A stretch of 64,000 bases of DNA from an uncultured Flavobacteriales bacterium (GTDB lineage: Bacteria; Bacteroidota; Bacteroidia; Flavobacteriales_D; Parvicellaceae). This document shows, piece by piece, positions 11,771 through 25,644 of this stretch; positions within the stretch are counted from its first letter, which is position 1, and each line of letters opens with the position of its first letter. The notes under the pieces were generated by a model. It had not been told where the DNA came from, did not search any database, and was given only the letters and a program-made list of their open reading frames with translations. The translations under genes and the position numbers were made by a program. Where the stretch lies: assembly GCA_913030835.1 (NCBI GenBank), contig CAJWDP010000009.1:1-64000 (forward strand), read 5' to 3'.

Positions 11771-14700
11771 TCAGCGAACCAAAGTTACGTGACCTTGGAA
11801 GGTATGGTCCATATTCGTTGCTTCAGCACGCATCGTTATTTTCCAAACATATACCTCTGACGGGGCTAATGTACCATCCACAGTTCCATCCCAACCCAAA
11901 CTAGTGTGTTGAGACTGAAAAATAATTTCACCCCAACGATTAAAAATCAATAATTCGTAGGAGGTATCAATATGGCCTAAAATACTAGGCATGAATACAT
12001 CATTCACATTGTCACCATCCGGCGTAAAAGCATTTGGAGTATATACAATGAGCTCTGGACCTATAACCAAAGGATAGGATATAGAATCAGCGCAACCTTC
12101 ATCAGAGATAGCTAACAATTCAACTACATAAACCCCAGTATCAGGAAAAGTATATAAACCATCGTAATCACTGCTTTGATCCAATCCTGCATAATCCCAT
12201 AAGAATTGTGTCCCACCTGCACTCATATTTGTGAATTCGATCGTAGAGTTCAGTATCGTCGTCGGTTGGGGGCCGAAACTAAAATCGGCTGTCGGATATG
12301 CAAAAGCATTGATCACGTTCATCGAGTCAAGTGTATTCATGCATCCATTCGCATCCGTGATGGTTAATGACACATCATAGCTGCCTAAATTGTATGTAAC
12401 CGTTGGCCCTGTGCAATCGGTTGATGTTCCACCAATTCCAAAGTCCCAAAAGCAGCTCACTGAACCAGCGGAGGTATTGCTAAAGTTGGCGGTTACGGGC
12501 TCACATCCGGAAGCTTGATCAACAGAAAAAGAAACATCAGGCAGAGGATTAATGATCACGTTTGTCGTGTCAGAAGATCCACATCCACCAGGAATAGTAT
12601 AAATAACAACGGTAGTTCCTGAACCGGCCACGGAAGGATCAAATGTTCCTGTAGCAGGATCTGTAATTCCTGTTCCTGACCATGATCCTCCAGGATTAGC
12701 GGCAGACATAGTGATTGCTGTTGCATCCACACAAAATGGTCCAACAGGGTCAATAGCCGACGAGGTATTGGGAATTACAGTGATCTCTGTTGTCCCTGTG
12801 TCACCGCACATACCTGAAATCTCGTAGGTAACCGTCCAGTTTCCTACTCCGGCTGTTCCAGGATCAAATGTACCCAAAACAGGATCTAGAATTCCATTCC
12901 CACCCCAAGAACCGCCTCCGTCGACAGCACTCAGGTAAACCACCGGCTCACCAACACAATATGGACCAACAGGAGCAATCGTGGCATCCATGTTGGGATT
13001 TATGGTAATATCAAACGTTTTAGTATCTCCACAGGTTCCGGAAATATCATACGTTATCGTATGTGTACCCGTGCCTGCTGTTAAAGGATCAAAGGTTCCT
13101 AAACCAGGATCTGTTATTCCATTTCCACTCCATAGGCCACCCGGATCAACAGCCGTCAAGTTCAAGATTGGATCCAGCTCACAGAATGGCCCTACTGGAG
13201 CAATAGTGGCATCCTGTTGAGGCAATACCAAAATGTCTTCAGTATCCGTATCGCCACATGCACCTGAAATTGTATACGTCAACGTATGTGTTCCAGGACC
13301 TGCAACCAAAGGGTCGAAAATTCCGAGTGCCGGATCTGTTATGCCTGTTCCAGACCATGTACCACCGGCTTCGGCAGCTACTAGTGTGGTAGCAACCGCA
13401 TCATCGCAATATGGTCCAGCAGGTGTAATTGTAGCATCTCCATCAGCAATCACCATAATATCCTCTGAATCCGTGCTTCCACAAGAGCCAGGAATTGAGT
13501 ACGTAATTGTCCATGTGCCTGCACCTGCAACCGAAGGGTCAAAAGTACCCAAGGCAGGATCTGTTATTCCTGCACCCGACCAAGTACCACCGGGATCAGT
13601 TGCTGTAAGATTGACAGCTATGTTACTCTCACAAAATGGAGGTACCGCAGATATAGTGGCATCGAGAAAAGCATTTACAACAACATCATACGTGCTGACA
13701 TCAGGACAACTGCCACCTATACTATAGGTAATTGTATGTGTACCCGAACCGGCAACAATAGGATCAAATAACCCAGCAATCGGATCTGTAATCCCTACTC
13801 CACTCCAGGTTCCACCCGGGTCTGCTCCTGAAAGATTAACCGCAGCATCATTTGAACAAAATGGTCCTGCCGGCAGAATTGTTGCATCTGCATCAGAATT
13901 TACTAAAAAATCTTCTGTATCCGTTGATCCGCAAGCACCCGAAATCGTATACGTTACGGTATGAGTTCCAGGACCTGCTGTAGATGGATCGAAAGTACCT
14001 AAAGCTGGATCTATAATACCCATTCCGCTCCAAACTCCGCCCGGATCGACCGACATCGCATTGATCGCTGGATCACTTTCGCAAAATGGTCCGGCAGCAG
14101 AAATTGTAGCATCTGCCATTGAATTGACAATTACATCTATGGTTTGAACATCAGGACATACACCTCCAACGCTATAGGTAATCGTGTGGGTTCCTGAGCC
14201 CGCCGATGCAGGATCAAACGACCCCAATAAAGGATCTGTAATCCCAGTTCCACTCCAGGTACCTCCCGGATCTGCTCCTACCATAATAACAGCCGGGTCA
14301 ATCGTACAATAAGGTCCTACAGGTGTAATGGTCGCATCCGCATCTGCATTTACCGTTATGCTTTCCGTGTCAGAGCTACCGCAAGAACCGGGAATCGTGT
14401 AAGTGATTACAAAGGTTCCTGCGCCCGCAGAAGACGGGTCAAAAGTACCTGCAAAAGGATCCGTAATTCCTGCGCCCGACCAAGTGCCACCAGGATCGAC
14501 TGCAGTCAACGTTACGGGTATATTACTCTCGCAAAATGGTCCGGCCGGTGCAATAGTGGCATCAAAACTGGAATTAATCTGCACATCAAATGTTTGAATA
14601 TCCGGGCAAGCACCTCCTACACTGTATGTAATCGTGTGTGTGCCAGATCCAGCCGTAGATGGGTCAAATGAGCCAGTCGCGGGATCTGTGATACCCGTTC

Positions 14701-16243
14701 CACTCCAGGTTCCACCAGGATCTGCTCCTACCATCGTGACCATAGGATCCCCTGGGCAAAAAGGTCCAATTGGCGTAATTGACGCATCAGCATCAGAATT
14801 AATGGTAATCGATGTTGTTCCTACATCTCCACACGCCCCCGAAATGGAATACGTAATTGTATGAACACCTGAACCAGCAGTCGCAGGATCAAAGGTGCCT
14901 GCAGCGGGATCAGTTATACCCGTGCCCGACCATACACCTCCGGGATCTGCTCCCACAAGACCAATACTTGGGTCACTTTCACAAAACGGTCCAACCGGGG
15001 TTATCGTCGCGTCTAACGTGCTATTTACAGTAATTGAGGTTGTTTGCACATCAGGACATAATCCGGATATAGAATACGTAATCGTGTGCGATCCTGGGCC
15101 TGCAATAGCAGGATCAAATGTGCCAGCCGTGGCATTCGATATGCCGGTTCCTGACCACGTCCCTCCCGGATCAACCGCTACCAGTGTAACTGCAGGATCT
15201 CCTGTGCAAAAAGGTCCGACGGGAGTAATTGTAGCATCGGAATTTGCTATGACGTCAATCGTTTCGGTATCTGTTGCCCCACAGGGCCCAGAAATGGTGT
15301 ATGTGATAACATGAGAACCCACACCTGCAGTTACAGGATCAAATGTTCCTGCAGCAGGATCAATTATTCCTGTTCCGGACCAGGTTCCACCTGGATCCAC
15401 AGCAGTAAGTGTTGTAGGGGACGACGATTCACAATATGGCCCTGCCGCTGAAATAGTAGCGTCTGCCAAAGCCCCTCCGCTAGTAACGGTAACAGTTGCT
15501 GTTGACACGCAACCCGTATTATCTGTAACCTGCACCGAGTATGTTCCGGCACAAAGCCCAACTGCGGTTTGTGTTGTTTGACTCCCCGCAGCAGCATCCC
15601 ATAAATAAGAATATGGCGCAACACCACCTGCTCCAACCGTAGCAGTCGCGGTTCCATCACATGCACCTGAGCATGATTCAATCGCCATGCTCATTGTTGG
15701 TGGCAAACAACAGCTAGTCGCACAGGAGTACCATACGGTAACATTTGGCACCCTCGGAGTAAAGCTCATTCCAAAAGGATAGGCTTTTCCTGTACCCTCC
15801 AATATTTGAATGTTGGCATCCGCAACAATTACATTTCCAACTGCAGTACCATTCGAATAATTACCTCCTGTGGTATTGCTTGCGGTTATGTAGAAACCGG
15901 CAACATCACCTGCACATAGAAATTCGGAAAAGGTGATAGGAATAACGGTATTCGTTCCTGCAGTAAATGTAACGCTGTTCGCTGTTCCCAGAAGTGTCCA
16001 TGCCGCCGCATTCGTTTCGTTACCTACATGTGTGCCGCCAATCGAATAGATTTCCATATCGTAGGTGCCATTGTCATAGTCCATCGCCAGCTGTGTAATA
16101 TTTACAGAGGTGATCGCAACAATATCGAACATGATACCGCTCTGTCCATTGTTGGTAAATTGAGGCGTAGACAGAGGTCCACACTGTGCCATAACGCCAA
16201 ATTGTACTAGAAGAAAAAGTAAAAGTGTAAAACCATTTTTCAT
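11771..16243 (-). CDS. Giant repeat adhesin: SprB repeat, 13 x 75-residue repeats, PKD, T9SS type B C-terminus
   Basis: The 1490-residue surface protein has a signal peptide (MKNGFTLLLFLLVQFGVMAQ), an N-terminal beta domain, then a SprB-type repeat at about 190-257 (SYLWDAA, GTYSVQVTDNTGC). Thirteen tandem units of about 75 residues follow (residues 260-1234), each with DATI, GPFC, DPGGTWSGTGI, GTFDP, ITYSI and C(G/P)D. Next are a PKD-like region (FWDFGIGG) with a second beta-sandwich, and a gliding-motility-associated C-terminal domain (TPNAFTPDGDNVNDVF, FNRWGEIIF), the type B T9SS signal. Two Cys per unit suggest disulphides. The likely role is a filamentous adhesin. Its ATG overlaps the upstream small gene's stop (ATGA), implying coupled translation. 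Confidence 0.93.
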   Translation of the reverse strand: MKNGFTLLLFLLVQFGVMAQCGPLSTPQFTNNGQSGIMFDIVAITSVNITQLAMDYDNGTYDMEIYSIGGTHVGNETNAAAWTLLGTANSVTFTAGTNTVIPITFSEFLCAGDVAGFYITASNTTGGNYSNGTAVGNVIVADANIQILEGTGKAYPFGMSFTPRVPNVTVWYSCATSCCLPPTMSMAIESCSGACDGTATATVGAGGVAPYSYLWDAAAGSQTTQTAVGLCAGTYSVQVTDNTGCVSTATVTVTSGGALADATISAAGPYCESSSPTTLTAVDPGGTWSGTGIIDPAAGTFDPVTAGVGSHVITYTISGPCGATDTETIDVIANSDATITPVGPFCTGDPAVTLVAVDPGGTWSGTGISNATAGTFDPAIAGPGSHTITYSISGLCPDVQTTSITVNSTLDATITPVGPFCESDPSIGLVGADPGGVWSGTGITDPAAGTFDPATAGSGVHTITYSISGACGDVGTTSITINSDADASITPIGPFCPGDPMVTMVGADPGGTWSGTGITDPATGSFDPSTAGSGTHTITYSVGGACPDIQTFDVQINSSFDATIAPAGPFCESNIPVTLTAVDPGGTWSGAGITDPFAGTFDPSSAGAGTFVITYTIPGSCGSSDTESITVNADADATITPVGPYCTIDPAVIMVGADPGGTWSGTGITDPLLGSFDPASAGSGTHTITYSVGGVCPDVQTIDVIVNSMADATISAAGPFCESDPAINAMSVDPGGVWSGMGIIDPALGTFDPSTAGPGTHTVTYTISGACGSTDTEDFLVNSDADATILPAGPFCSNDAAVNLSGADPGGTWSGVGITDPIAGLFDPIVAGSGTHTITYSIGGSCPDVSTYDVVVNAFLDATISAVPPFCESNIAVNLTATDPGGTWSGAGITDPALGTFDPSVAGAGTWTITYSIPGSCGSTDSEDIMVIADGDATITPAGPYCDDAVATTLVAAEAGGTWSGTGITDPALGIFDPLVAGPGTHTLTYTISGACGDTDTEDILVLPQQDATIAPVGPFCELDPILNLTAVDPGGLWSGNGITDPGLGTFDPLTAGTGTHTITYDISGTCGDTKTFDITINPNMDATIAPVGPYCVGEPVVYLSAVDGGGSWGGNGILDPVLGTFDPGTAGVGNWTVTYEISGMCGDTGTTEITVIPNTSSAIDPVGPFCVDATAITMSAANPGGSWSGTGITDPATGTFDPSVAGSGTTVVIYTIPGGCGSSDTTNVIINPLPDVSFSVDQASGCEPVTANFSNTSAGSVSCFWDFGIGGTSTDCTGPTVTYNLGSYDVSLTITDANGCMNTLDSMNVINAFAYPTADFSFGPQPTTILNSTIEFTNMSAGGTQFLWDYAGLDQSSDYDGLYTFPDTGVYVVELLAISDEGCADSISYPLVIGPELIVYTPNAFTPDGDNVNDVFMPSILGHIDTSYELLIFNRWGEIIFQSQHTSLGWDGTVDGTLAPSEVYVWKITMRAEATNMDHTFQGHVTLVR
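12543..15466 (-). repeat. Thirteen 225 bp tandem coding repeats in the adhesin
   Basis: Thirteen in-frame units average 225 bp (75 residues) with no spacers. Units 2, 4, 6 and 8 carry the CPD variant near the end of the unit; the others carry CG. Units 2-5 resemble 6-9 position by position (3 and 7 share CESDP and GGVWSG; 5 and 9 share CESNI, SGAGITDP and PGSCGS), which indicates a four-unit block duplication. Confidence 0.85.
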
Positions 16244-17322: not shown

Positions 17323-18618
17323 CTAATCGAACAAACTGATACGCTTTTCGCTTTCCAGGTAGATAGTTGGTGTTGATCCCATCTTAGCAACTTTCCCTTT
17401 CACAACTATTTCTTTTCCATCAAAGTAAGTTACAGGATCATATGGAAAATTTACAAGATGCTCTTTCCTTATAAAAATGGTAAATATCTGATTGGGGTAT
17501 TTGCGATCCAGATTGATCAAAGCGTTTCCCTTCCTACTTTTCCTTGCACTGACAACAGTACCCACAACTTGAACCGTACTTCCATCTTGCATAAAGTTCT
17601 TTGCGTCTATTGTGTTGAAGTGACCTTTGGGTAGGTCGGGTGCTGATTTCGGAATGACATCTCCTTGTTGAATTGAATTTGACCAATGAAGCGGTTCATA
17701 GCCATTCTTGACCGAATCAACAGGATAGTTTGGGAAAAATGTAAATCCAGTTTCTTTTTCGACTGATTCAACACTCATCATATAAGACTCAATAGGATAC
17801 TGAAGGTGTTCTTTATGCGGCAAAATAAATCCGACAGCTCTTCTCATTTTAGGGTCCAGCGCAACTTTAAAAAATCGGGTGGGTATAGCGACTTTGTTTT
17901 TACTCCTGCTTATGTAATTGGTATCTCCATCGAATATTGGGCCGGTTACTACGATTAAGCTGCTTTCATCATTCGACACAATATAGTTTCGTAAATAATT
18001 CTCTAGATCTGCCCATTTTTCACGATTGAAACCAGGAAGTTGTGGAGACATATTTGAATAATAATACGATTCAGAAAGCGCAGACCTTGACCACCTGAAA
18101 TCGGCCGATGGAGCAAGATGACCGCGATCGTAACCAAAACCATCGTACTCAACATCTCCGTCAGAATTTCGAGTTTTAATAAAATAATCCTCTTCCTCTG
18201 CAGAACCGGATTGAATAAGAGTATCAATTCGAAAATCATTGGTCCTTCCTACAGTCCCGTCTTTAATTTCCGATGAAATAATATGCATCACCCAGATTGC
18301 TTGTTCGACCTCTTCACCATAAGCCAATGAAAAGGCCTTGTGACGAATCACATGGTCATTTGAAGGAAAGCCAATTTCTTCTAGTTCTGCGCTCAAGATG
18401 TTTAACTTAACCTGCTCTATTTTTTTATCTATTTCAACCATTGTCGATGCTACCCGCCCTTTGGAATTTTCCAATTCGCCTAGCTCGTACCTCAATTTAT
18501 CAATGGATTGAGCATAGCAATCAGGTGAACAAAGAATGAAAGAAAGTATCACTATACAATTGCAATACAATAGAGAATTCAAATTCAATTTTGAAAATCG
18601 ACTGCTCTTGTTAGTCAT
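17323..18618 (-). CDS. Secreted DNA/RNA non-specific endonuclease with C-terminal OB-like domain
   Basis: From the ATG at 18618 the protein has 431 residues. A hydrophobic signal segment ends near SPDCYAQ. A short coiled coil follows (LRYELGELENSKGRVA), then the NUC1/NucA-type nuclease domain with the catalytic DRGH motif in GYDRGHLAPSADF and the downstream Asn-containing SNMSPQ metal-site segment. The last roughly 90 residues (VQVVGTVVSARKSRKGNALI to VVKGKVAKMG) look like an OB fold and could bind nucleic acid. It cleaves DNA and RNA without sequence preference, probably in the periplasm or outside. It lies 16 bp after the MscS-like gene and shares its operon. A TTG at 18642 is a less likely start. 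Confidence 0.88.
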   Translation of the reverse strand: MTNKSSRFSKLNLNSLLYCNCIVILSFILCSPDCYAQSIDKLRYELGELENSKGRVASTMVEIDKKIEQVKLNILSAELEEIGFPSNDHVIRHKAFSLAYGEEVEQAIWVMHIISSEIKDGTVGRTNDFRIDTLIQSGSAEEEDYFIKTRNSDGDVEYDGFGYDRGHLAPSADFRWSRSALSESYYYSNMSPQLPGFNREKWADLENYLRNYIVSNDESSLIVVTGPIFDGDTNYISRSKNKVAIPTRFFKVALDPKMRRAVGFILPHKEHLQYPIESYMMSVESVEKETGFTFFPNYPVDSVKNGYEPLHWSNSIQQGDVIPKSAPDLPKGHFNTIDAKNFMQDGSTVQVVGTVVSARKSRKGNALINLDRKYPNQIFTIFIRKEHLVNFPYDPVTYFDGKEIVVKGKVAKMGSTPTIYLESEKRISLFD

Positions 18619-18634
18619 GAAATTCCATCTACAA

Positions 18635-19390
18635 TTATTCAAAATACTTCTTAATTTTTGGGATATAATTTAAATCAAGTGTGTAACCGGATATGGTCAA
18701 TTCTTTTGATAATTCGTTATACGAAACTCGGGGTGTTTGATCGGAAATGATCCACGGACAGGACAGCGCAATATGCTTTACATGCTCAATGTCCGTTTTT
18801 TCTTTTATCAACGTAAAAGAAAATTGTTTCAAGCGTTCCTGCGTAGATGGCTTTCGTATGATCTGATTGGCAAACTCAGAATATGGAATATAGATTAGCT
18901 CGCCATTATCTGCTTCCAACTTTACGTGAGTATTCAATAGTTCATTGATCACTCCAGAATTGGCATTCAATTGCACCCGCTGGTTCACCCCATAATTGTT
19001 CTGAACCTTGAAAACCAATCCGGCAATAAAGTCCTTGAGAAAACGCCAAAATCCTAGTAATACAATTAGCACTACCACAATACCAACGAGAGGATATGGT
19101 TTAATGAAAATATAGGCGACGCGAATGAAATAAAGCAACCAAAATGCGGAAGTAACAATGGGAAAATACCTTTTTGCTGAAATTCTCGCCTTTCTACTCT
19201 GAATTACATCAATGACATATTTTTGAATAAGATAAAACCCGATATAAAGAAAAACAGCAGTTGCTATCAACCAAAATACAGACCAAAAGGATAAATCGTA
19301 AGAAACTTGATCTACATCCTTAATTAAAGGAGCCGAAAACATCTCAAAAGTATCTAGAGAATCTGCTGATATCGCCACATCTTCCATCAT
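18635..19390 (-). CDS. MscS-like mechanosensitive channel protein
   Basis: The 251-residue protein has three hydrophobic segments at about 33-55, 72-92 and 95-118. The last leads into the MscS pore-helix/beta junction (LLGFWRFLKDFIAGLVFKVQ) and a beta domain (NNYGVNQRVQLNANSGVINE, ADNGELIYIPYSEFANQII). MscS proteins gate under membrane tension to release osmolytes. Its ATG overlaps the stop of the upstream transporter gene (ATGA), so translation is coupled and a joint role in ion or volume homeostasis is likely. The pore-lining glycine/alanine pattern is weak, so conductance properties may differ. Confidence 0.8.
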   Translation of the reverse strand: MMEDVAISADSLDTFEMFSAPLIKDVDQVSYDLSFWSVFWLIATAVFLYIGFYLIQKYVIDVIQSRKARISAKRYFPIVTSAFWLLYFIRVAYIFIKPYPLVGIVVVLIVLLGFWRFLKDFIAGLVFKVQNNYGVNQRVQLNANSGVINELLNTHVKLEADNGELIYIPYSEFANQIIRKPSTQERLKQFSFTLIKEKTDIEHVKHIALSCPWIISDQTPRVSYNELSKELTISGYTLDLNYIPKIKKYFE

Positions 19391-22300
19391 CGTATTAGTC
19401 CATTTTCTATTAGTATTTGCTGTACGTACATTTCAGCGAAAGGATTGATCACGAACGTATTGCTTGATTCAATAACCAGACCACACCTTTTCAAACTCTG
19501 GAACACTTGATAGATCTCTATGCCTGTTTCCGACCTAAATATGACCTGAGCCGTTTCAATTGTTAACACCTTATGAATTAGTAATTCATTCAAAGCTACT
19601 AACCAATCCGAATTACTAATGATCGGGAGGTTCAATGCTGTTGGACTTCCCATAATTATAGTTTCCTTCTTTACATCGCTAATGTTTGCCAACCACAAAT
19701 GCTGAATCGCTCCTAAATTCCCGTTAGAAATACTGTGATATTTTCTAAACAAACGATTGGTGTTTCTCCTTCCTAATTGTTCAAAGCTTTTACCCGCTAT
19801 GACTGTTTTCATTCCACCAGACTGATGTCTATGCTCAACCTCTCGAATAGCTGTATTTAATGAGATCGGGGCAATTATGATGGTCGATTGCAAAACACCA
19901 TCAAAAGAAATTAGCTGTTTTATAAACTTGTAGAATTCAATGTTACAGGATAAGCAGATTTTTAATTTGCCACTATAGGTTCTGATAAACGAAATTAATT
20001 GGTCGAAGGCTTCGTTTTCCCCACCTTTTAAAAACCACAATTCAATGTTCTTAAAATAAACTCGGTCTCCAGGGTTCATTTTTGTTTTGTACTCAGGCCA
20101 ATTCTGCACTTCTGCACTCGAAAACAAAGCATTCTCCCATATTTCATTGCTAAGATCAGCAGTCCGATCGGGACACTCAACTTTGTAAAAACTTCCTCCC
20201 TCCAGACCGGAAACCAAAGCTTCGGCCTCAGCTAAGTAACACGAGCCTTCGTTACCCGTAATTAGAATAGCTCCATCCATACCAGACTCATTCCTTTGAA
20301 TTGCTTTATCAAATTGAACCTTACCGTTATTATTTTCTCGGTCGGAAGTCATAAGTCCATACCGACCAAGGAACAGCTGTTTATAATAGAAAGGAAGCAA
20401 TTCTTCTACTTGAGGCTTAATGGTGATCTGATCTACAAAGTCCTTTACAATTCCATGTAAATTTTGGTCAGATTCATGTTTAATAGAAAACTGAGCATTT
20501 GACAGCTCATCCCTTTTGTTAATATATCCTTGTGCAATTTGAGTGTAAATCCCTTGAACCAAACGCGACAATTGTTTCGTAGAATTTTTCCACCCTCGTC
20601 TTGAAGATTCTCTTTTGATATACCGATCCAACTTGCCTGCCCGAGTAATAAGCGATTTAAAGTCCAAAAGCTCATCAACCTGAGTGAGATTCTCCCTGAT
20701 ATCTGATTTGAGTTTTTCCTGTAAAGAATCAACTTTAACAATAGCAGATTCTAGCTCTTTCTTGGATTTTTGCAATACTTCGTTTACCTGAGCATTGGTT
20801 ACATCCGGGTTCTGACAGGTATATGTTACCAACTTCGCACCATTTTCGAGTTGCTGTTTTACCTTTTGCGTTTCCGAAACTATTGAAGAAACTGTCAATT
20901 CAATTTCTTCCGACAGTTTGGATTCCAGCAGATATCCTACCAGTTCATTCAATTTAATCGCAGACTTTTTACTACTTCCGAAGTTTCTACCGTTGGGATC
21001 CAATCCTTCAATATCAACAACTTCCAAAATGTCCGGAATTTCAGTTGAAATCTTCTCAATTAAATTAATGTTAGAACTGATGATATCATCGTAAGAAAAG
21101 CTGCTTGAAGCATTGAACTCTAATCCACCAATCTGTTGTAGATCATTAGCACTTTGTATGCCTTCTAACTTTTCCTGATATGAATTCAATTCAAATTTCA
21201 CCTTCATGAAAATTCCTAAATCCATTCGTGCAATGCTCCTTTCAATAATGGGCTTAATTCCCGACTTAACTCTTTGCAGGTAATAGTCCAACAACAGATT
21301 GTTGTGCATCAAGTTCTGAAAATCGAGCCATTTCCCAGGAAATCGGCTTATAGCAAGTAAATCAGACTTCAGTTTTCTTGTTGACCGATTTTCTACTCGC
21401 TCATCCAGACGCAAATTCACGTCTACACGATCGGCATCTTGAATCAATGTGTTCACATACTTAGCGGTGAGCGTATTAACGCTTTCAGCCATAAGCTTCG
21501 GGTGCTTCTCCAAATCCGAAATAAATAGTGCCAACCGTTGATCAAATTTTTGAAGCAACGGATCAATATTATCCTGCGTTACCCGGTCTGGTAATTCCTC
21601 AATTGCCTGATTAAATTCATTGTAAAGTGAACTTAGATCGTCAATTATATGGTACCCCGACGAAGCGTATTGACTTATCACATTTCTCAATTCTGGTATA
21701 AACCCATAATCATATCGATACACACTTAACTCCTTAAATCTGATATTAATTCTGGGTTTTAGGCCTATTTTGAGTAACCTCCTCTTTGCTTTTTTTGCTC
21801 TCGAAATTTTATAATCCTCCTCCTCAACAATAGCCAAATCCTCCAGCTCCAATCTTCGCAAGATTCTGCTGTCTAGCGAATCGATTACGGCTTTGTGCTC
21901 GACAATCAAATTTTCTAAACTTTGAGATAATGCTCGAGCCGCTGTAATCAATTGTTCACGCGCTAGCCCGTCAATTGATTCTTTAAACAGCTTTCCTGTT
22001 TCCTTTTTAAGTTGTGATTTAGACCCTTTAAATCCGGATGTAACTCCTTTAATTTGATCTTGTAAATACGTCAGTTTACCTGAATAAACGGATTGTATTC
22101 CTTTAAATCCCTTATGGGCAAAATTCGTATTAATATCACTGAATTGTGTAACGATAAGATTCACCTGATTTTGTACCTGAGGAATTTCTGATCCAGTTAT
22201 TTCTATATGCTTTGACGGCGCAAATTCATTATCGCTTCTTTTTTCCTGATTGAAGACTTCAATTTTCTTAAGATCAATCGTTAGATCATCAAAATGCGAG

Positions 22301-24465
22301 GAGGCTCTAACAAGTAATGCAGTACCAATTATTCCAACCAATTCGTCTGTTGATCGAACGAAATCACTTTCCTTCCCTTTACCTAATTCGGGAATTGGAA
22401 GAAAGACCAAATCAGCATCAAATGAATGCGTTTTAACTATTTCATATTCCGACTTCTTGTTAACAGAATTGTTGATCACTTTAGTGGTAGCCTGAATTCT
22501 AAGCTCACTCAATAATTCATCAATCTGCTCTTCTACGGCCAATCTCTGCTCATTTTCATCGTTGATCAGCAATATTCTAAACTCCGCATTTCGCCAATCA
22601 TTTGAAGTCTGAATGAGCTTAATCAGACTGAGCATAAACTCACATTCTTTTGATAAACTGCTCCACCACAGGTCCACCTTATTGTAATTTCCGAATCCTC
22701 TTTTCTGATCATAATCAAGGTAGAGGACATTGTAATCCAGATCTGACAGCCTTGTTGTCATCTCATAGAATGATTTCGGATCTTTTGTGTTTCGTCCCCA
22801 CCCCATTAAAACCGTATTCGGATCAATTCCCGAGAATCCATAGGTTGAAGCAATCATTTCAACTCCTTGAAATATATTTCTGCATTCCTGACGTCTGGCA
22901 AAAATGCCCTGTTCAGCAATTTCATTGTCTCGAATGGATTGCAAATGTTTGGGGAAAAGGACTTTAGAGTCGGGGGTTTCCACCAAATCAAAATTTGATA
23001 TCATACCCAAGCGACCCGCCAAAACTTTTGAAAACTCAATTAGATGAGGACGATCATCGGTTTCTCCTGAGAACAAAAGAATATTGGGTTCCCAGCTCCT
23101 TTTGTGCATCTCTTTCTGGTCCATTCGCTTTAGACCAGCTTTAACCACAGAAGACCAAACAGATTGCCAAACGTCGCCCGACCCCAATGTTAGCTGCTTC
23201 CGGGTTAGAAAGACAAAAATTCCTCCAATAACGATCAGAGCTACAACCATGGCAGCAACATTCAACATTACCATAACGTAGCCGGTTGCAATAAAACCAA
23301 TCAGCCCAAACCATTTCGATATTTTGAACGATGGGAGATAATCTGAGCTTGCCCACGATTCAAGGAATTGTGCCAAATTGATAAAGCCGTAAGCCGCCAG
23401 GAAAAACATAGAAACAATTTCTGCTATGGTATTTAGCTCTCCGATGAGAATCCCAACTTCTGCTAGTAAAAATGTGAGAATCAGAGCATTCCTAGGTTCA
23501 TTTTCCGGCCCCACACCTTTTGCAAAAACTCGTGGTCCGATCTTATCCATTGACATGGCTTGGAGAATTCTGGGGGCTCCAAGTAAGCTCCCTATAGCTG
23601 AGGACAAAGTCGCACCCCAAATACCCGCAACAACCAATACTGGTATCCACGCGTATTTTTTCAACACATTTTCATCGGTAATCAAAACATCTTCCGGAAT
23701 ACTAAAAGCAATGAATATGGCAAGCGAAAGGTATACTATCAAACCAGTTGCAATGGACAATATCGTACCGTTAGGAATGGATTTCTTCGGATCTTTTAGG
23801 TCACCCGACATTGCCACACCTGCCGTAAATCCGGTCACAGCGGGAAAAAATATCGCAAATAGGTTGAACCACCCGCTTTCCGTTTTTTCTGATAGCAAGA
23901 CTGGATCTACAGGAGCCGTATTTGACCAATCTCCGGCAAAGATGGATACCAAGGACAGAGCAATCGCCGCCAAAATGAAAAATTGAACTTTTAAGGCAAT
24001 ATTCGTACTGATATAGGCAACGAGGGTAATCAGAATCAATGCACAGGTAGCAACAAGACGAATCAAGTTGAGCATGGACATACCGTAATTCGAAGCACCA
24101 CTTGAACCACCAATTACATCAATAAACGATTCGGAAAAACCCACCAGATATAACGAGATTGCGAGTGCAGTCCCCACAAAAAGAGTTACACCAATCGCTC
24201 CCCCGATAGGTAATCCAAGACTTCTTGAAAGAATATAATAGATCCCTCCGGCCTCTATTTTCCTATCCGTGGCAATTGAAGATACACCCAATCCGGTCGT
24301 GATTGAAATAACGTGCGCTGTGAGAACTATACCTATAGTACTCCACATACCGGCATTTCCAACCACGTAACCCATTCTGAGGTACATGATTACACCTAAA
24401 ATGGTCAGTACAGAAGGCGTATACACCCCTGCAAAAGTCCCAAACTTCCTGATCGATTCGTTCAT
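19387..24465 (-). CDS. SLC12-like cation-chloride cotransporter fused to a ~960-residue extension with a degenerate AAA+-like domain
   Basis: The protein has 1692 residues. Residues 1-440 are a 12-TM APC-superfamily transporter (TPSVLTILGVIMYLRMGYVV is the SLC12 TM1 signature). Residues 460-730 match the SLC12 cytosolic domain (PNILLFSGETDDRPHLIEF, LMGWGRNTKDPKSFYEM). The rest is unusual: helical coiled-coil-like sequence to about 1380, then a region with AAA+-like order: ILITGNEGSCYLAEAE in the P-loop position without the Walker lysine (about 1397), RVYFKNIELWFL in the Walker B position (about 1465), KICLSCN in the sensor 1 position, and a winged-helix-like end. Bacterial SLC12 relatives are usually far shorter. 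It is probably an ion symporter with a regulatory C-terminal module. It is first gene of the operon with the MscS-like gene. Confidence 0.85.
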   Translation of the reverse strand: MNESIRKFGTFAGVYTPSVLTILGVIMYLRMGYVVGNAGMWSTIGIVLTAHVISITTGLGVSSIATDRKIEAGGIYYILSRSLGLPIGGAIGVTLFVGTALAISLYLVGFSESFIDVIGGSSGASNYGMSMLNLIRLVATCALILITLVAYISTNIALKVQFFILAAIALSLVSIFAGDWSNTAPVDPVLLSEKTESGWFNLFAIFFPAVTGFTAGVAMSGDLKDPKKSIPNGTILSIATGLIVYLSLAIFIAFSIPEDVLITDENVLKKYAWIPVLVVAGIWGATLSSAIGSLLGAPRILQAMSMDKIGPRVFAKGVGPENEPRNALILTFLLAEVGILIGELNTIAEIVSMFFLAAYGFINLAQFLESWASSDYLPSFKISKWFGLIGFIATGYVMVMLNVAAMVVALIVIGGIFVFLTRKQLTLGSGDVWQSVWSSVVKAGLKRMDQKEMHKRSWEPNILLFSGETDDRPHLIEFSKVLAGRLGMISNFDLVETPDSKVLFPKHLQSIRDNEIAEQGIFARRQECRNIFQGVEMIASTYGFSGIDPNTVLMGWGRNTKDPKSFYEMTTRLSDLDYNVLYLDYDQKRGFGNYNKVDLWWSSLSKECEFMLSLIKLIQTSNDWRNAEFRILLINDENEQRLAVEEQIDELLSELRIQATTKVINNSVNKKSEYEIVKTHSFDADLVFLPIPELGKGKESDFVRSTDELVGIIGTALLVRASSHFDDLTIDLKKIEVFNQEKRSDNEFAPSKHIEITGSEIPQVQNQVNLIVTQFSDINTNFAHKGFKGIQSVYSGKLTYLQDQIKGVTSGFKGSKSQLKKETGKLFKESIDGLAREQLITAARALSQSLENLIVEHKAVIDSLDSRILRRLELEDLAIVEEEDYKISRAKKAKRRLLKIGLKPRINIRFKELSVYRYDYGFIPELRNVISQYASSGYHIIDDLSSLYNEFNQAIEELPDRVTQDNIDPLLQKFDQRLALFISDLEKHPKLMAESVNTLTAKYVNTLIQDADRVDVNLRLDERVENRSTRKLKSDLLAISRFPGKWLDFQNLMHNNLLLDYYLQRVKSGIKPIIERSIARMDLGIFMKVKFELNSYQEKLEGIQSANDLQQIGGLEFNASSSFSYDDIISSNINLIEKISTEIPDILEVVDIEGLDPNGRNFGSSKKSAIKLNELVGYLLESKLSEEIELTVSSIVSETQKVKQQLENGAKLVTYTCQNPDVTNAQVNEVLQKSKKELESAIVKVDSLQEKLKSDIRENLTQVDELLDFKSLITRAGKLDRYIKRESSRRGWKNSTKQLSRLVQGIYTQIAQGYINKRDELSNAQFSIKHESDQNLHGIVKDFVDQITIKPQVEELLPFYYKQLFLGRYGLMTSDRENNNGKVQFDKAIQRNESGMDGAILITGNEGSCYLAEAEALVSGLEGGSFYKVECPDRTADLSNEIWENALFSSAEVQNWPEYKTKMNPGDRVYFKNIELWFLKGGENEAFDQLISFIRTYSGKLKICLSCNIEFYKFIKQLISFDGVLQSTIIIAPISLNTAIREVEHRHQSGGMKTVIAGKSFEQLGRRNTNRLFRKYHSISNGNLGAIQHLWLANISDVKKETIIMGSPTALNLPIISNSDWLVALNELLIHKVLTIETAQVIFRSETGIEIYQVFQSLKRCGLVIESSNTFVINPFAEMYVQQILIENGLIR

Positions 24466-24564
24466 AACAAAATCAACTTCTTTAGACGCAATCTAGCGGA
24501 AAAGGTTATACATTTAATCCACTACCATCCCACGATGGTCAGATTCGTATTCAAAGTTAACAGT

Positions 24565-25644
24565 ATGCAAGAAGATCTTACGCATTTTTTCAATGACCTG
24601 AATGTAGTTGAATTGTCAAGTGTACTAGCAGGACCCTCGGTAGGTATGTTTTTCGCAGAAATGGGTGCAAACGTAACCAAAATTGAAAATGAGAGAACGG
24701 ATGGGGACGTAACCCGAAAATGGCGAACCAAGAGCGACCACAGAAAAATTTCATCGTATTTCGCTTCAGTCAATTACGGTAAAAAATATGTTCAGCTTAA
24801 TTTACTGCAATCTGATGATAAAAAGCGGTTGCAGGAATACGTCAGCTCAGCGGACGTAATACTCACCAATTTAAAGTTGGGAGATGACAAAAAGCTAGGG
24901 ATTACCTATGAATTCTTCAAGTCGATAAAAAATGACATTATCCAATGCCAGCTATATGGATTTGAATCAGACAAAAGCAGACCAGCCTTCGACGCTGTAT
25001 TGCAAGCAGAAACCGGATTTATGTCCATGAATGGTCACCCGAATTCGCCCCCAACAAAATTCCCTGTAGCCCTTATCGATCTTTTTGCAGCGCACCAAAT
25101 GAAAGAAGCGATTCTAATCGCCCTGCTGAAAAAAGCAAGAACAGGACTGGGTAGCTATATAGAAGTTTCATTGGAAAAGGCGGGGCTGGCTTCACTAGCG
25201 AATCAAGCTACCAATTGGTTGATGAATCGCGCGATCCCTGGACGGATTGGCTCTATTCATCCTAGCATTGCCCCGTATGGTGAAACTTTTCAGTGCAAAG
25301 ATGGGATTTGGGTGGTTCTGGCGGTCGGAACGGATCGACAATTCAAGGAAATGATGAGCTTGTTGAACTTACAAGAGATGATTACTCATCCGAATTACTG
25401 CACCAACGAACAACGAGTGATGCATAGAAAACAGTTAGCCGAACTATTGAGCAATTCTTTCGCTCAGCAAGATAGCAATTCAATATGCACCCAATTGAAA
25501 ACAGCAGGAGTACCTTTCGGAAAGGTGAAAAATGTAAAGGATGTTTTAGAAAGTGAAGTTGCTCAAAGCATGACTCTCATGGAGCGAATTGATGGCGATG
25601 AGACCGCACGACTCAGCTCGATTGGTTTTCGGTTTTTAGCTTAG
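24565..25644 (+). CDS. CaiB/BaiF family (class III) CoA-transferase
   Basis: The ATG at 24565 gives 359 residues starting MQEDLTHFFNDLNVVELSSV. The class III CoA-transferase N-terminal signature is clear: ELSSVLAGPSVGMFFAEMGA then VTKIEN. The catalytic aspartate is in RPAFDAVLQAETGFMSMNG, and LIDLFAAHQ is also typical. These enzymes move CoA between acyl groups through an aspartyl anhydride. The acyl substrate is unknown and no fatty-acid or carnitine genes are adjacent. An ATG at 24535 would add 10 unconserved residues. The 3' end overlaps the convergent membrane-protein gene by 32 bp. Confidence 0.88.
   Translation: MQEDLTHFFNDLNVVELSSVLAGPSVGMFFAEMGANVTKIENERTDGDVTRKWRTKSDHRKISSYFASVNYGKKYVQLNLLQSDDKKRLQEYVSSADVILTNLKLGDDKKLGITYEFFKSIKNDIIQCQLYGFESDKSRPAFDAVLQAETGFMSMNGHPNSPPTKFPVALIDLFAAHQMKEAILIALLKKARTGLGSYIEVSLEKAGLASLANQATNWLMNRAIPGRIGSIHPSIAPYGETFQCKDGIWVVLAVGTDRQFKEMMSLLNLQEMITHPNYCTNEQRVMHRKQLAELLSNSFAQQDSNSICTQLKTAGVPFGKVKNVKDVLESEVAQSMTLMERIDGDETARLSSIGFRFLA

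Follow-up and report, generated by a model that had tools for sequence, protein, structure and literature searches.

Cation-chloride cotransporters (CCCs) of the SLC12 family, which include KCC, NKCC, NCC and the prokaryotic MaCCC (TC 2.A.30), combine a transmembrane domain with a cytosolic C-terminal domain. Human SLC12 transporters work in kidney and nerve, and in animals the family is usually viewed as controlled by phosphorylation. Channels of the MscS type are usually viewed as self-contained tension valves. Here we describe a locus in which genes of both kinds lie side by side, in a 64,000-nucleotide stretch of DNA from an uncultured Flavobacteriales bacterium (contig CAJWDP010000009.1, positions 1 to 64,000; hereafter the window). 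An open reading frame (ORF) on the minus strand (19387-24465 including the stop codon, 1692 aa, no internal stop) encodes a complete SLC12/CCC transporter followed by a soluble extension of about 960 residues, which ends in an AAA+ domain and a winged helix. A small MscS-like channel gene lies directly downstream. In our estimate the chances are about even that the AAA+ part serves as a regulator or scaffold linking ion transport to the MscS-type channel in turgor and osmotic balance. This reading is motivated by the finding that two unrelated monovalent-ion transporters carry the same module, which in addition stays beside an MscS-type channel gene. The features of the locus, all on the minus strand, are as follows (residues are those of the 1692-aa protein).

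23176..24465, minus: SLC12/CCC-type transmembrane domain, residues 1-430 (Pfam AA_permease 4e-43, TIGR00930 2e-115, KCC4 2.7e-79)
22291..23175, minus: CCC-type cytosolic C-terminal domain, residues 431-725 (phmmer alignment, Pfam SLC12 2e-5)
20461..22248, minus: long helical region, residues 740-1335, soluble (AlphaFold2 (AF2) mean confidence, pLDDT, 85.4; almost all helix)
19612..20454, minus: AAA+ domain, residues 1338-1618, with catalytic motifs degenerate in the window's genus (AF2, Foldseek, VIA, Pfam)
20233..20256, minus: degenerate Walker A motif GNEGSCYL, residues 1404-1411, with Tyr where most relatives have Lys (alignment of 132 domains)
20035..20061, minus: degenerate Walker B strand VYFKNIELW, residues 1469-1477 (relatives mostly (N/D/E)D(L/I)ELWW)
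19390..19611, minus: C-terminal winged helix, residues 1619-1692 (AF2 secondary structure HHH-beta-beta)
18635..19390, minus: gene for an MscS-like channel of 251 aa that shares 4 nt with the stop-codon end of the transporter gene (Pfam MS_channel_2nd 8.6e-6)

The N-terminal half is an SLC12 transporter

The best match in the Protein Data Bank (PDB) for the first 745 residues is KCC4 (E 2.7e-79), and it spans both the transmembrane and the cytosolic CCC domains. Pfam AA_permease covers residues 1-433 (E 4e-43), and the CCC subfamily model TIGR00930 covers residues 4-679 with an E value of 2e-115, which is below that model's strict subfamily cut-off. KCC C-terminal domains align by phmmer up to residue ~694-711, and the Pfam SLC12 match to this region, at E 2e-5, is under the cut-off. 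Together, the KCC4 and TIGR00930 matches identify a 12-transmembrane-segment APC-fold domain followed by a CCC C-terminal domain, the arrangement found in described SLC12 cotransporters. Unlike its eukaryotic counterparts and bacterial relatives of 730 aa, the window protein carries about 960 further residues with an AAA+/winged-helix part and is co-encoded with an MscS-like protein.

By alignment, the K+-site Tyr of transmembrane segment 3 (TM3) and the Na+-site Ser pair of TM8 are both present. Tyr106 aligns with the KCC Tyr and is invariant among ten aligned fused relatives; in the TM8 segment AGIWGATLSSAIGSLLGAP, NKCC1 ranks above NCC and KCC, and ATLSSA is identical to NKCC1. We take Tyr106 and ATLSSA to correspond to the K+ and Na+ sites of NKCC1. 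Both sites therefore look present, and the ion specificity is predicted from them.

The extension ends in an AAA+ domain and a winged helix

Residues ~730-1692 gave no confident match in Pfam or NCBIfam, and no transmembrane segment was predicted in them, so we take the extension to be cytosolic, like the CCC C-terminal domain that precedes it. The AF2 model of residues 1338-1692, built from the window sequence and 46 relatives, has a pLDDT of 93.9 and consists of an AAA+ core and a winged helix. Foldseek placed Cdc6/Orc1 at the top (E 6e-8) among 598 PDB matches at E<=0.001, and VIA gave Z scores of up to 13.9, to NSF D2. Pfam AAA_16 matches 37 of the 47 aligned family members individually. 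The nSTAND3 and nSTAND1 models match fewer members (14 and 3 of the 47, respectively, at E<=0.01) than do AAA_16 and AAA_22, and no repeat sensor was seen. The winged-helix end has profile matches to archaeal and MarR-type winged helices (1uly, 2d1h). The AAA+ fold of the window protein is thus supported by AF2, Foldseek and VIA, which bears out the original prediction of a chimeric SLC12 transporter with a degenerate AAA+ domain and a winged-helix-like end; that prediction had made its case depend on a structural AAA+ match in the C-terminal part. It had also placed the ~960-residue extension on exactly the ORF found here, giving no strand.

In having an AAA+ core followed by a winged helix, the module resembles the Cdc6/Orc1-STAND neighbourhood of AAA+ proteins (Pfam AAA_16, AAA_22), and most of its members share the P-loop, the Walker B strand and the sensor 1 Asn with that group. 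Unlike these proteins, the module is associated with membrane transporters and with MscS genes, not with replication origins, and in the window's genus the catalytic motifs are degenerate.

The AAA+ part is preceded by a long helical region, modelled as residues 728-1345, with helices of up to 77 residues. Foldseek found no PDB match for it at E<=0.001. The Pfam matches in this region (DUF445, OPA1_C and others) were isolated, weak and unusable, and the VIA matches (designed bundles and bacterial dynamin, Z up to 13.4) were set aside as helical-bundle background.

The P-loop is intact in most relatives and degenerate in the window's genus

In an alignment of 132 AAA+ domains, which includes a few duplicates, the window motifs fall in register with the intact Walker A motifs of relatives (GDPFSGKS, GESGSGKS, GDSLSGKT and others), with their Walker B strand and with sensor 1, which is LSCN at residues 1505-1508 of the window protein. 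The motif positions quoted in the original prediction were correct. Of the 132 domains, 111 keep the P-loop Lys and 110 have an Arg-His pair in the lid region, and most fusion copies have an intact P-loop of the form GExNSGKS/T. In the window protein this Lys is absent: a Tyr occupies its position, and KN stands where the Walker B acidic residues are expected. Two genus mates have the P-loops GCMGSGYS and GCLGSGYS, so that all three members of the genus lack the Walker A Lys. The intact P-loops in homologues, together with the AF2 and Foldseek results, rule out a chance motif match.

Given the prevalence of the Lys outside the genus, the ancestral module was probably a working NTPase whose site was lost in the genus of the window. 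The AAA+ domain of this genus is nevertheless not decaying: in the two genus mates (L032 and L033), which share the loss, the ratio of nonsynonymous to synonymous substitution rates (dN/dS) for the AAA+ region is 0.08 at a dS of 0.75. Across all parts of the extension dN/dS is 0.08-0.17, indicating purifying selection. These values come from that one genus pair, the window sequence being too diverged (dS saturated). The earlier proposal of an inactive ATPase used as a scaffold therefore fits the window's genus, where the Lys is lost in three of three members and dN/dS is ~0.08.

An MscS-like gene accompanies the module

The protein encoded directly downstream of the transporter gene belongs to a family in which 39 of 42 members match MS_channel_2nd. 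The profile of this family aligns with MscS over residues 30-240, nearly the whole core, and matches MscS, MscM and MscK at ~1e-18. The over-cut-off MS_channel_2nd match and the profile alignment together establish the MscS core (TM3, beta domain and alpha/beta domain) in the partner, a putative tension-gated channel. Unlike typical MscS channels, the partner is short (217-269 aa in SLC12 operons) and is directly co-encoded with an AAA+ protein.

We counted 124 distinct AAA+ loci whose flanking sequence was long enough to show a neighbour. In 117 of them an MscS-like gene lies on the same strand no more than 300 nt away, downstream in 110, and the two genes mostly overlap by 4 nt or are separated by less than 15 nt. 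Averaged over 59 genomes, those that bear the module contain only ~5.7 MscS-domain genes each, and the two genes should therefore be neighbours by chance in well under 1% of cases. By contrast, the stretches fetched around 19 extension-less transporter relatives contain no MscS-like gene. The MscS gene therefore tracks the extension and not the transporter.

Several loci depart from the common layout. The gene order is reversed in L177, L181, L184 and L202-L204, with MscS ahead of AAA+, and there Arg or some other residue often replaces the P-loop Lys. In L174 (2779-6917, minus strand), three MscS-domain genes are packed into ~4 kb next to a single stand-alone AAA+/winged-helix gene. A single 702-aa ORF that joins the AAA+/winged-helix and MscS-like parts (L081, 10594-12702, plus strand) was not used, because the nearly identical L034 has two separate genes and a frameshift error is likely.

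The extension is old, widespread and also found without SLC12

A search with residues 730-1692 found matches in 35 of 60 related genomes, nearly always in open frames of 1630-1706 aa. Every near-complete transporter orthologue above 43% identity has the extension; homologues from the same order at ~30% identity are 732-755 aa long, and in Flavobacteriaceae the transporter (~51% identical to the query used there) stops near 730 aa. In a scan of GTDB species genomes, full fusions occurred in Flavobacteriales, Bacteroidales, Cytophagales and Saprospiraceae, and also in metagenome-assembled genomes labelled Marinimicrobia, Myxococcota, SAR324, Gemmatimonadetes and Calditrichota, some of which labels may be unreliable. 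The isolates Mangrovivirga halotolerans, Fulvivirga sp. M361 and Labilibaculum filiforme carry the fusion and confirm its occurrence in Bacteroidota. Because orthologous open frames of 1630-1750 aa recur in dozens of genomes, the fused ORF is far beyond chance, and the same recurrence rules out an assembly artefact or gene-prediction error. By these sequence comparisons the extension is an old, widespread module and is not peculiar to the window genome.

Elsewhere in Bacteroidota, the extension profile (A7) detected stand-alone proteins of ~400 or ~1000 aa and proteins of ~1500 aa, likewise beside MscS genes. In four of the ~1500-aa proteins the N-terminal part matches a Na+/H+ exchanger domain above the Pfam cut-off (7e-19 to 3e-22); these represent a second fusion, to a CPA2 antiporter. 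Two further proteins (L182 and L209) group with the CPA2 fusions and have no Pfam exchanger match of their own, and the related L188 has an N-terminal part without an assigned domain. TrkH and TrkA-like genes lie near the module gene in L170 and L188. The CPA2 fusions have the same C-terminal helical-AAA+/winged-helix module and MscS-like neighbour as the SLC12 fusions; they differ in their unrelated transporter domain, and the two types form separate clades in the AAA+ tree (midpoint rooting, moderate support). A stand-alone AAA+ protein (L039) nests inside the SLC12-fusion clade and keeps its MscS neighbour, and its genome gave no match to the transporter. A conserved membrane-like protein of 414-422 aa with no Pfam match is encoded directly upstream of the CPA2-AAA+ gene in L170 (10688-11956, minus strand) and L173 (11380-12624, minus strand).

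The age and spread of the module, the intact P-loop of its probable ancestral form, its MscS companion gene and its stand-alone and CPA2-fused forms all go beyond the original prediction, which had singled out the extension as a candidate undescribed module. That prediction would also have been refuted had the extension been a known ubiquitous family, and this applies only by half: the module is widespread, but no family covering it turned up in Pfam, NCBIfam or PADLOC.

Other genes in the window

A CaiB/BaiF-like CoA-transferase gene (24535-25644, plus strand) diverges from the transporter gene and recurs as a neighbour in many family genomes. Directly after the MscS-like gene, in the window's genus, lies a gene for a DNA/RNA non-specific endonuclease with a signal-like N-terminus (17323-18642, minus strand), a position that is not conserved in other genera. 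Further along, a 1490-aa secreted protein (11771-16243, minus strand) contains many diverged repeats of the form DATI.P.GPFC..DP..VGADPGGTWSGTGITDP..GTFDP...GTHTITYSI.G.C, too diverged in DNA for detection by TRF, and ends in a domain resembling the C-terminal domains of gliding and type IX secretion system (T9SS) proteins.

A proposed unit for ion uptake and pressure release

We propose that the AAA+/winged-helix domain sits at the tip of a helical stalk on the cytosolic tail of the cotransporter, and that the transporter gene and the small MscS-type channel gene are read as one operon. The AAA+ module would most likely be a physical and regulatory partner of the MscS-like channel. Facing the cytosol, it may sense the ATP level or crowding, or form a ring, and it would alter how active the channel and any fused transporter are, or how they assemble. 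Ion uptake and emergency release would then be adjusted jointly, as one unit for turgor and ion balance. In the window's genus, where the ATPase site has decayed, the domain would probably act as a nucleotide-independent scaffold. We hold with slightly less than even confidence the fuller version of this model, an as yet undescribed two-gene system in which a helical AAA+/winged-helix NTPase, alone or fused to an SLC12 or CPA2 transporter, controls a dedicated MscS-type channel and brings uptake and pressure release under one ATP-responsive unit, with a pseudo-ATPase scaffold in the window's genus.

Several points weigh against a coupled transport and channel unit. Operon linkage might arise from a stress response common to both genes, without any complex between their products, and no MscS gene was found nearby in L088, L090, L098, L185 and L205. 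The helical region has no recognisable fold, which leaves its role unconstrained. The extension also evolves fast: its mean identity is ~20%, against ~60% in the transmembrane part, and a core catalytic partner would not usually diverge so quickly.

Other explanations account for parts of these data. The protein could be a transporter-tethered one-component transcription regulator, in which the winged helix binds DNA, the AAA+ domain is switched by transport activity and the MscS gene is among the targets. The fold indeed comes nearest to AAA+ proteins of the Cdc6/Orc1 type, in which the winged helix binds DNA, and the winged-helix profile matches archaeal regulators; however, the AAA+/winged-helix part of the window protein has a net charge of -4 and so no net positive charge, STAND and ORC winged helices often serve as protein-contact lids, and the MscS linkage is far tighter than regulation requires. 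We regard such a regulator as unlikely. We judge equally unlikely a chaperone-like AAA+ factor for assembly or quality control, one that puts together or takes apart the MscS-like channel and the transporter and does not act as a sensor. Here the top VIA matches by Z are NSF-D2-type AAA+ domains, but at this level all AAA+ domains look alike; the long helical stalk could reach membrane clients, and the repeated loss of the P-loop Lys suggests that ATP turnover is not always needed.

NTPase-controlled pore effectors are a known theme in defence, and some members have weak nSTAND-type Pfam matches, as would suit a cell-suicide system with a STAND/AAA+ sensor and an MscS-type pore as its effector. 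Yet PADLOC models gave no match for the window extension or the MscS partner, the sole match being a weak one (mads_8, 2e-4) in a CPA2-fused relative. The locus is single-copy with a conserved neighbourhood across the family (for example, the upstream CoA-transferase gene), and the module is fused to two unrelated ion transporters, with Trk genes adjoining in some relatives; a defence role is accordingly improbable. Least probable of all is an inert passenger on an ordinary amino-acid/cation permease with an incidental MscS neighbour. The extension diverges rapidly and close transporter relatives manage without it, but its length and AAA+ motifs are conserved across phyla, and the purifying selection on all its parts, together with the MscS adjacency in 117 of 124 loci, makes this reading very unlikely.

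Of the components of the proposed unit for turgor and ion balance, the SLC12 transporter is known, and the regulatory module and its partner channel are new. A description of the AAA+/MscS/transporter combination was not found in the open-access literature, and it is a realistic possibility that the AAA+/MscS pair forms an undescribed system of its own. The proposal is directly testable, because cultured strains (M. halotolerans, the Fulvivirga strain and L. filiforme) carry the fusion. If true, it would add a new layer of control to bacterial osmoregulation and would offer bacterial relatives in which to study the regulation of SLC12 transporters.

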